64,000 nucleotides of DNA from Candidatus Xiphinematobacter sp. Idaho Grape. GTDB taxonomy: Bacteria > Verrucomicrobiota > Verrucomicrobiia > Chthoniobacterales > Xiphinematobacteraceae. The notes beneath the pieces were generated by a model that saw only the letters and a program-made list of their open reading frames with translations, was not told the DNA's origin and searched no databases. The position numbers were made by a program, and so were the translations under genes. The DNA lies in the NCBI RefSeq assembly GCF_001318295.1, contig NZ_CP012665.1:310001-374000 (forward strand), in the 5' to 3' direction. This document shows, in pieces, positions 53,905 to 57,427 of this stretch (within the stretch, counting starts at the first letter, position 1; every line of letters begins with the position of its first letter).

Positions 53905-54882
53905 CTACGGTACCAAGATAGAGGGTAGAAGATAAAGGCGTCCAGGCTCGAGTGCAAAAACATGCAGAAGGTTCAGTTGAACTTTTTGAGTAACCCCTTG
54001 ACTCAGTCTACTCAGGAATGTTGAGAAAGAAAATTGTACTGTATAGCTGACAATTGAGGCATCGGAGGCACTGCCGAGCTCTTTCGCCTTGGCGTAAGCA
54101 TCCTCAATATAGCCGAGACTGTCTACTAGCTTTTCGCGATAAGCGTCCTCTCCACTGAGGATACGACCATCTGCGACCCCCTTATAGAGAATGTCAGGGG
54201 CTAGGTTTCTAGCAGAGGAGACTACTTGTACAAATCGCCTGTAGGTCTGCATGACGAGTGCTTGGACATAAACCCTTTCTTCAGGAGCCATTTCCCTTGC
54301 TGGGTTAAGCATGTCCTTGAATTTTCCGCTTCTAAAAACCAGAGACCGCAGACCGATTTTGCCAAAAAATTCCTGGTAGTTCAGAGTGGAAATTATCACA
54401 CCAATACTGCCTGTAAAGGTAGTGGGGCTGCACATAATCCAGGAAGCTCCACAAGCGGTGTAATAGGCTCCAGAGGCTCCTATGGAATTGATGTAGTAGA
54501 CAACTGGTTTCTGTTGCGCAAGGCTACGCAGAGAATGATAAAGAACATCAGATGCTGTTACCTCACCCCCCGGAGAATCTGCAGAGATTACAATGGCTTT
54601 GACATCAGGGTCGCTAGCTGCTTGCTGGAAAGCTTCCTTTAGATCATCTACCATAGAGTCGCCTAGTGCATTGGACTGAGAAAAACCAATAGTTCCAACG
54701 AGAGGAATGAGCACAATCTTTGAGTTTTCTGCTCCTGGCAGGAGGACAGTTTCACGGTAACGTCTTTCCAGTGCGAAAAGCCCTTTTTTATCAGTAAGAG
54801 TTACCAGCAAAAAAATGTTAAAGAAGACGCTCAGGCAGAATAGCAGAAGGAACGCAATACTTAGGAGGCCACCTTTGTTCAT
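53905..54882 (-). CDS. sppA: signal peptide peptidase SppA, single-domain type
   Basis: Membrane serine protease that degrades cleaved signal peptides. The 325-aa protein has an N-terminal anchor (LLSIAFLLLFCLSVFFNIFL). The nucleophile serine is in NSIGASGAYYTACGA near residue 138, and the general-base lysine is in FRSGKFKDMLNPAREM near residue 187. It lacks the second domain of E. coli SppA, as in the short form. Divergent from rsmA. Confidence 0.93.
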   Translation of the reverse strand: MNKGGLLSIAFLLLFCLSVFFNIFLLVTLTDKKGLFALERRYRETVLLPGAENSKIVLIPLVGTIGFSQSNALGDSMVDDLKEAFQQAASDPDVKAIVISADSPGGEVTASDVLYHSLRSLAQQKPVVYYINSIGASGAYYTACGASWIMCSPTTFTGSIGVIISTLNYQEFFGKIGLRSLVFRSGKFKDMLNPAREMAPEERVYVQALVMQTYRRFVQVVSSARNLAPDILYKGVADGRILSGEDAYREKLVDSLGYIEDAYAKAKELGSASDASIVSYTVQFSFSTFLSRLSQGVTQKVQLNLLHVFALEPGRLYLLPSILVP

Positions 54883-54991: not shown

Positions 54992-56323
54992 ATGACACTC
55001 GGAGAGGTGCGAAGCTATCTCAAGGAACTCGCTCTGGAGCCTATAAAAAGTCTGGGGCAGAATTTCTTGCATGATCAAAATCTTGCTCGATGGATGGTGT
55101 CGGAACTCTCCCTAGATTGTAGGGACCATGTAGTAGAATTAGGTCCTGGGTTAGGTGCTCTTACAGAGTACTTGGTGCAAGCTGGAGTGGGGCGGCTGAC
55201 TGTGGTAGAGAAGGATGGCCGTCTTGCGAGTGCGTTAGTTCGGAGGTTGGGGAATTCTTTCCATGTTATCCAGGCAGATGCAGCACGTGTTGACCTCCTT
55301 GGACTTTACGGATTCGGACGAGTGGAGGTCATCGGGAATTTGCCTTATTATGCGACCTCTTCCATCCTTATGCGATTTCTTGACAGGCTCTCACCAGCAA
55401 CTCGACTGATTTTTGCTGTGCAAAGGGAATTAGCACATCGGCTCGTCGCGGTTCCGCACACTAGAGAGTATGGAGAAATGGCAGTCTATATCCAACATCG
55501 TTGGAAGATACGATTCTTGCGCAACCTTCCACCTAGTGTTTTTTATCCTAAGCCTAAGGTAGATTCGGCCATTATCCTTTTCACGCCACGGAAGGTTATC
55601 CCCTTCTGTGACGAGGTCCTTTTTGAGAGGATAGTACACCGCGGGTTCTCTGAGCGCAGGAAACAGTTGCGGAAGTTGCTTGGGAATACGAATGGTGTTT
55701 GGGAAAAATTTTCTGCCGAGAGGAAAATCTCCCCACTCGCACGGGCAGAAGAACTCTCCCCTACTGATTACGCGGAACTAGTTTTTCGGCTTAGTCCATT
55801 CCATCCCCAAACTGTGGCCGCGCATGTGGAGGAATTTGATGTTGTGGATTTCCAGAATCGAGTGGTGACTCGCTCTCCTTGCTTAAAGGTCCACGCAAAA
55901 GGGCTTCCACATCGGTCTGTACACATTCTGATACAGAATAGGGCCGGCAAATGGTTTTTACAAAAAAGATCTCTTTGGAAGGACAGCAATCCAGGTAAGT
56001 GGGATTCTAGTGTTGCAGGGCATCTCCGAGCTGGAGAAGGTTACGAGACTGCTGCACGTAGGGAGTTGCGCGAGGAATTAGGAATCACAGAATGCAACTG
56101 GCTGGGGAAAAAAGGCAGCTTACAAGCCTCTTCGGAAACTGGATGGGAATTCATTGAGGTTTTTTATACCCAACAAGAGGGACCTTTTACTCTTATGCCT
56201 ATGGAGACTGATACTGGAGCCTTTTTTGAGGAAGGGACCATCCGGAGATGGGTACAGAGAGAGCCAGAGTTGTTTAGTCCAACATTCTTACAGTGCTTTG
56301 ACTTAGTAGTTAACAACCACTAG
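54992..56323 (+). CDS. rsmA: RsmA (KsgA) 16S rRNA dimethyltransferase fused to a Nudix hydrolase
   Basis: Residues 1-270 are a complete KsgA: LGQNFLHDQNLARW, SAM motif VVELGPGLGALTEYL, VVEKD, catalytic IGNLPYYATSSILMRFL, and the C-terminal helices with RRKQLRKLLG. It dimethylates two adenines near the 3' end of 16S rRNA. Without any start codon at the junction the frame continues into a Nudix domain (residues 278-443). That part has HAKGLPHRSVHILI, the LQKRSLWKDSNPGKWD segment and a perfect Nudix box at about 343-365 (G-x5-E-x7-REL-x-EE-x-G-I). The Nudix part resembles isopentenyl-diphosphate-isomerase-like hydrolases (YfcD type). Its substrate is unknown. Confidence 0.9.
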   Translation: MTLGEVRSYLKELALEPIKSLGQNFLHDQNLARWMVSELSLDCRDHVVELGPGLGALTEYLVQAGVGRLTVVEKDGRLASALVRRLGNSFHVIQADAARVDLLGLYGFGRVEVIGNLPYYATSSILMRFLDRLSPATRLIFAVQRELAHRLVAVPHTREYGEMAVYIQHRWKIRFLRNLPPSVFYPKPKVDSAIILFTPRKVIPFCDEVLFERIVHRGFSERRKQLRKLLGNTNGVWEKFSAERKISPLARAEELSPTDYAELVFRLSPFHPQTVAAHVEEFDVVDFQNRVVTRSPCLKVHAKGLPHRSVHILIQNRAGKWFLQKRSLWKDSNPGKWDSSVAGHLRAGEGYETAARRELREELGITECNWLGKKGSLQASSETGWEFIEVFYTQQEGPFTLMPMETDTGAFFEEGTIRRWVQREPELFSPTFLQCFDLVVNNH

Positions 56324-56425: not shown

Positions 56426-57427
56426 ATGCATGCACTTTTCTCAGACTGCCTACACCCCACAAGGCTTGGAAGGGGCGACGGCAATGTTGTTTACCACACA
56501 CCTGTACTAGTCAACGAGGTGGTTGACTATCTTCGACCATCTCATAAAGCACTTATTCTGGATGGAACACTAGGAGGAGGAGGCCACAGCGCAAGTCTAC
56601 TCCGGAGTGGGGCTTCCATTATTGCTGTGGATCAAGACCCTGAAGCAATCACTTATTCTAAGGAGCGGCTCGCGCGCTATAGCTCGCGCATTCGCATTGT
56701 CCAAGATAACTTCAGAAAGATCCACCACGTACTTTGTTCTCTTAATGTACAGAAGTTGGACGGCGCCCTCTTAGACGTGGGTGTATCCTCCCGTCAGCTG
56801 GAAAACCCAAATCGTGGGTTTGCCATTCTCAAAAATGGGCCGCTCGATATGCGGATGGATCCCCTTGCTCCCCTTTCAGCGGCGGACATTGTCAACACAG
56901 CCAGTCTCTCGGAACTTGCCCACATTTTTCGTGAATATGGTCAAGAGCCTCACGCTTTTCGCATTGCCTCTCGTCTTGTCGTGCTGCGCAGCCGCCGTCC
57001 TGTCAGCACAACCTTTGATCTTGTTTCCATCGTCAAATCTGTTGTCTCTCGATATTGTCACAACTCATACCGGCCAGTAACACGAGTATTTCAAGCCCTA
57101 CGTATAGCAGTTAATGATGAGTTAGGGGCTCTGCAGGAAGGACTTAGTGCCATCTCCTCTCATCTTGCCTATGGAGCACGCTTTACCGTAATCACTTTCC
57201 ATTCACTAGAGGACCGCATAGTAAAACATTTCTTTCTGAGAAATAGTATGAAATGGATCAATTATCTCGCTTGGCCTGCTCCGCGTCCCAATCCGTATCG
57301 TATCTTCAGACTCCTCACTCCTCACCCCATCAGAGCAAGTAGAGAGGAGATCCATAACAATCCTAGAGCCCGTAGCGCCAAATTGCGTGTCGTTGAGAGT
57401 ATCCTGAGGGGGAAGAGGGGCCAATGA
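56426..57427 (+). CDS. rsmH: 16S rRNA m4C1402 methyltransferase RsmH (MraW)
   Basis: First gene of the division and wall cluster here. The 333-aa protein has YHTPVLVNEVVDYLRP, SAM motif LDGTLGGGGHSASLL near residue 47, GALLDVGVSSRQLENPNRGF and RVFQALRIAVNDELGALQEG. FTVITFHSLEDRIVKHFF follows. About 20 residues precede the usual start; no better start is in frame. mraZ, its normal upstream neighbour, is absent and rsmA lies there instead. The stop overlaps the ftsL ATG by four bases. Confidence 0.96.
   Translation: MHALFSDCLHPTRLGRGDGNVVYHTPVLVNEVVDYLRPSHKALILDGTLGGGGHSASLLRSGASIIAVDQDPEAITYSKERLARYSSRIRIVQDNFRKIHHVLCSLNVQKLDGALLDVGVSSRQLENPNRGFAILKNGPLDMRMDPLAPLSAADIVNTASLSELAHIFREYGQEPHAFRIASRLVVLRSRRPVSTTFDLVSIVKSVVSRYCHNSYRPVTRVFQALRIAVNDELGALQEGLSAISSHLAYGARFTVITFHSLEDRIVKHFFLRNSMKWINYLAWPAPRPNPYRIFRLLTPHPIRASREEIHNNPRARSAKLRVVESILRGKRGQ

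Follow-up and report, generated by a model that had tools for sequence, protein, structure and literature searches.

One open reading frame for RsmA and a Nudix domain

Why would a bacterium make RsmA (KsgA), one of the best-conserved enzymes of ribosome assembly, which dimethylates two adenines in 16S rRNA helix 45 during 30S assembly, as one half of a protein whose other half is a Nudix domain? The question is raised by a gene in the window (the whole stretch of DNA analysed, 64,000 nucleotides). The organism is Candidatus Xiphinematobacter, which has a genome of a single 915,884-bp contig and is a symbiont of the nematode Xiphinema americanum (PMC4607532). The open reading frame starts with ATG and encodes 443 aa with no internal stop (ORF list and translation). 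A sequence-only reading had described it as a complete KsgA domain running in frame into a complete Nudix domain with a perfect Nudix box, and domain scans bore this out, both domains scoring above their cut-offs with no stop between them. The Pfam RrnaAD model matched aa 19–264 with 142.1 bits (cut-off 24), the NCBIfam ksgA model TIGR00755 matched aa 17–264 with 204.2 bits (curated equivalog cut-off 171; model positions 3–253 of 256), and NUDIX (PF00293) matched aa 306–374 with 55.6 bits (cut-off 21.1). The Nudix box, aa 343–365, reads GHLRAGEGYETAARRELREELGI, a perfect fit to GX5EX7REUXEEXGU. The protein shares the whole domain and all motifs of a standard RsmA (TIGR00755, PF00398), above the curated cut-off, but a standard RsmA stops near aa 270 whereas the fusion protein continues into the Nudix domain. 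Comparison with PHROGs gave nothing further on the protein. The features of the locus are as follows.

53905–54882, reverse strand: sppA-like gene (peptidase S49), lying divergently beside the fusion (Pfam scan)
54992–56323, forward strand: ksgA-nudix fusion gene, 443 aa (ORF and domain scans; both halves under purifying selection)
55040–55783, forward strand: RsmA/KsgA 16S rRNA m6,2A1518/1519 dimethyltransferase domain, aa 17–264 (TIGR00755; SAM and catalytic motifs)
55337–55351, forward strand: catalytic NLPYY motif, aa 116–120 (sequence; N116, P118 and Y119 invariant in 136 fused rows)
55784–55828, forward strand: inter-domain linker, aa 265–279 (alignment; lowest model confidence at aa 271–280)
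55829–56299, forward strand: IDI/YfcD-like Nudix hydrolase domain, aa 280–436 (PF00293; profile and Foldseek matches)
56018–56086, forward strand: Nudix box GX5EX7REUXEEXGU, aa 343–365 (sequence; key residues invariant in relatives)
56426–57427, forward strand: rsmH (mraW), next gene downstream of the fusion (Pfam scan)

The claim that no internal start interrupts the two halves needed some amendment. The linker holds no ATG codon and no conserved or Shine-Dalgarno-supported start; it does hold GTG at codons 275 and 279, both without a Shine-Dalgarno match. Across an alignment of 136 fused rows, some of them the same genome taken from two collections, a start codon with a Shine-Dalgarno-like site was not commoner in the linker than in a control stretch (7 versus 9). 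A free Nudix protein made from an internal start was rejected, there being no conserved start with such a site.

The junction might in principle have arisen as a sequencing or assembly artefact that deleted a stop and a start, a danger the sequence-only reading had itself named. The probability of this is negligible: the same full-length fusion recurs at full coverage in many independent assemblies, which excludes sequencing error, and the Ca. Xiphinematobacter genome is finished, at a read depth of ~1,290x (PMC4607532).

Distribution of the fusion in Verrucomicrobiota

The fusion protein served as query against a phylum sample of 388 genomes, with fused matches counted by hand from the match table. 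Full-length fusions were present in all 54 genomes sampled from eight families, of which six (f1–f6) belong to the window's order and two (f8 and f11) lie elsewhere in the class; judged from their organisms, the order appears to be Chthoniobacterales and the two further families appear to lie within Verrucomicrobiales. The other ~334 genomes gave no fused match among the matches listed. In this list, sorted by E-value, nothing lies between 1e-88 and 1e-48, so that no further fused match can rank lower. Conservation in Verrucomicrobia, which the sequence-only reading had proposed checking, therefore applies to these eight families and not to the rest of the phylum sample. Nor are the domains separate adjacent genes in all relatives, as that reading had allowed: they are fused in all 54 sampled genomes of the eight families and were seen as adjacent genes in one genome only (G320).

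Family f8 is that of Akkermansia muciniphila, which carries the fusion; within the family it was found in 59 of 60 genomes, the 60th having a contig-edge fragment. Among named records, the query matched 80 loci, including Chthoniobacter flavus Ellin428, and one open reading frame spanned both domains in all except L109. In that draft contig (L109:4467-5791) the fusion is broken into two frames, probably by an assembly frameshift. Both Pfam domains were present in all 46 proteins of a further alignment (A1). Six draft genomes of the order had no full match (G389, G390, G396, G398, G403 and G427); they yielded no separate pair of ksgA and nudix, and either nothing or weak KsgA-like hits, and the fusion gene may be absent from them or merely unassembled, assembly gaps being the simplest explanation. 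The weak matches in two of these drafts (L164 in G427 and L165 in G390) are ~30% identical, carry no Nudix domain and may be other methyltransferases. A match in another class (G261) extends to aa 340, with a TAA; it was rejected as a fusion or adjacency, with no Nudix ORF after its ksgA.

Gene order around the fusion is partly conserved: the sppA-like gene adjoins it not only in Xiphinematobacter but also in several of the other genomes of the order. The rsmH gene lies downstream in only the two Xiphinematobacter genomes among the loci compared.

That the architecture is not a standard one is correct in general; in the window's order and the two further families it is standard, and it had already been listed. 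A table in a 2013 metagenomic study gives, for an Akkermansia-like gut clone, a 450-aa 'Dimethyladenosine transferase' (ksgA, NUDIX hydrolase) (PMC3861447). The clone protein has the architecture of the fusion and nearly its length (450 versus 443 aa), and its neighbours in the table (UDP-glucose 4-epimerase and MATE efflux) match in kind those of the A. muciniphila locus, read by eye from sequences. The terms ksgA and NUDIX occur nowhere outside the table in that study, which does not treat spread, origin or function, and our literature search for KsgA and Nudix fusions found nothing beyond this table and no paper discussing the fusion. The architecture is thus already on record, though unremarked; what is new is its spread, the single-change pattern described below and the placement of the Nudix subfamily.

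Origin of the fusion

Elsewhere in the class, ksgA and the Nudix gene are mostly separate and usually far apart, the Nudix protein being 34–51% identical to the fusion's domain. In G320 (L149:1477-2885), ksgA and an IDI/YfcD-like nudix are adjacent on the same strand, unfused, with a gap of 53 bp. This pair may show what the locus looked like before the fusion; it is a single data point for an adjacent intermediate, from one genome, and its adjacency could be secondary rather than ancestral.

We built quick, unrooted maximum-likelihood trees of the two domains, and in each a single branch parts the fused from the separate rows (SH-aLRT 96 for KsgA and 98 for Nudix). Because fused and separate forms differ by a single change on both trees, the best fit, and the simplest reading of such trees, is that the domains were fused once and then passed on vertically. 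A second close homologue of either domain is mostly absent from fused genomes, which suggests that the fused version stands in for the separate one. We infer that the fusion arose from adjacent genes: ksgA and nudix were probably once neighbours, an arrangement still present in G320, the intervening stop would have been lost once, before the window's order and the two other fused families split, and the joined genes would have been inherited together ever since.

Conservation and selection in both halves

Across the 136 fused rows, the SAM and catalytic motifs of KsgA (GQNFL, E49-x-GPG and N116-L-P-Y) are invariant or nearly so. On the Nudix side, G343, R357, E358, E361 and E362, together with H301, H307, H344, E386 and E405, are invariant in the same rows and in all 15 separate homologues. 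In the symbiont, whose genome is reduced, purifying selection acts on both halves: dN/dS against the other Xiphinematobacter genome (Nei-Gojobori) is 0.157 for KsgA and 0.192 for Nudix. Only two PF00293 proteins are detectable in this genome, the fusion and an RppH-like one, and the Nudix domain has thus survived genome reduction.

These patterns suggest that both domains are catalytically active. They speak against a Nudix half that has lost catalysis or serves as a structural appendage, for example as an RNA- or ribosome-binding module. Non-enzymatic roles do occur in some Nudix-clan proteins (PMC5389931), but the invariance of the box glutamates and metal-site residues in the fused rows, and purifying selection on Nudix near that on KsgA, make such a role here quite improbable.

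Identity of the Nudix domain

By profile, the Nudix domain matched YfcD best (2fkb, E=2.4e-28), then DR_0079, and also IDI. Its predicted model (pLDDT 94.9) supports a Nudix fold, and Foldseek placed 2fkb as the nearest solved fold (TM 0.89), making E. coli YfcD (2fkb, NF011922) the closest solved structure by both profile and fold. YfcD differs in having no His at the positions matching 301 and 344, both present in the fusion. The YfcD equivalog model NF011922 scored the fusion protein at 73.5 and the separate Nudix homologues at 83.9–87.6, all below its cut-off of 152. The substrate of YfcD is listed as undetermined in PMC5389931.

The type 1 IPP isomerases (IDI of E. coli, Salmonella and human) share the fold, and their profiles match aa 280–432. 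Their metal-site His and Glu positions align to H301, H307, H344 and E386 in the profile alignment, and we take the counterparts of these four residues to be the named IDI metal ligands. If the domain were itself such an isomerase, the fusion would supply DMAPP/IPP balance. Several observations make this very improbable. Both IDI profiles fall short of their cut-offs (TIGR02150, 34.4 versus 105.8; NF002995, 52.8 versus 127). The position of the catalytic Cys (S-V-C-G-H) is Ala342 in the fusion, with Ala in 130, Ser in five and Gly in one of the 136 fused rows, and is Ser in 14 of 15 separate homologues. The box is of the hydrolase type, RExxEE, against RRxxxE in IDI. The genome also encodes IspH, a producer of both isomers, and IPP and DMAPP are therefore presumably made in the symbiont. 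Isopentenyl diphosphate, which the sequence-only reading had listed for assay, is accordingly disfavoured as an isomerase substrate by the missing Cys. Beside this position, aa 341 (window 56012–56014) is Cys in 12 of 15 separate homologues and mostly Ala in the fused rows, being Val here.

With the His and Glu residues of IDI kept, the catalytic Cys missing and a hydrolase-type box, the domain is probably a diphosphate hydrolase of the IDI/YfcD-like group, and IPP isomerase activity is unlikely. Two other Nudix proteins point to what it may cleave. DR_0079 of Deinococcus (PDB 1q27, 2o5f), the second-best profile match and without the IDI-type His, is described in the title of its paper as a nucleotide hydrolase preferring cytosine di- and triphosphates. 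Arabidopsis NUDX3, whose Nudix domain presumably has sequence kinship with that of the fusion, is likewise joined to an unrelated enzyme, although its partner is a different one (dipeptidyl peptidase III) and it belongs to a eukaryote. It was reported to dephosphorylate IPP, DMAPP, GPP and FPP (PMC11062433; PMC6412517). By analogy with these two activities, the likely substrates are small diphosphates of two candidate classes, prenyl diphosphates (IPP/DMAPP) or nucleoside di-/triphosphates, and hydrolysis of IPP/DMAPP is a good candidate.

Independent halves or a coupled enzyme

The preferred reading, to which we give a probability of about 0.7, is a bifunctional housekeeping protein in which adjacent genes were joined once, the halves keep their own activities and the link provides co-expression. 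The N-terminal half would be the cell's RsmA/KsgA, acting on 16S rRNA helix 45, and the C-terminal half a metal-dependent IDI/YfcD-like Nudix pyrophosphohydrolase, whose homologue in sister families is a separate enzyme. Each half most likely has its own activity, and the link would ensure that the two are expressed together in constant proportion, not that they share a reaction, with no regulatory coupling predicted. Simple co-expression, which had been offered as the plainer alternative, fits better, with separate Nudix homologues in sister families and adjacent genes in one genome; the existence of the former argues that neither half needs the other.

The sequence-only reading had also proposed that the fusion could link ribosome maturation with metabolite clean-up or stringent-type signals, for which we found no support. 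Such a coupling would have the Nudix domain sense or remove a metabolite (a nucleotide, a ppGpp-like alarmone, a prenyl diphosphate or a nucleotide by-product near the ribosome) and thereby gate or inform RsmA's maturation of the 30S subunit. That many families have retained the fusion, as has a symbiont with a genome of 0.9 Mb, is in keeping with it. So is the AlphaFold model of the whole protein (pLDDT 93.2, pTM 0.89), in which both domains are of high confidence and the pTM for the two together hints at a defined, fixed packing with room for coupling. The linker is the weak spot of that model (lowest pLDDT 58 at aa 271–280), and its length varies from about 11 to 32 residues in relatives, which points against fixed packing. 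Together with the sister families, whose separate homologues manage unlinked, and the lack of any active-site residue pattern specific to fused proteins, save the lost Cys beside the IDI-Cys position, this leaves functional coupling rather unlikely. A more specific form of it is also unlikely. In this form, how fast or where RsmA acts in the window's order and in the Akkermansia lineage would be set by the Nudix domain cleaving a prenyl or nucleotide diphosphate; if true, it would tie 30S maturation to the isoprenoid and cell-envelope state or to the nucleotide state.

Implications

It is unusual for RsmA to keep a fusion partner in many families of one bacterial class, and within the phylum the fusion cleanly marks these groups as a trait they share. 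The Nudix subfamily, with its IDI-like metal site, hydrolase box and lack of the Cys, provides a useful case for the relations between isomerases and hydrolases in the clan. Since the much-studied gut bacterium A. muciniphila has the fusion, coupling versus mere co-expression is directly testable.
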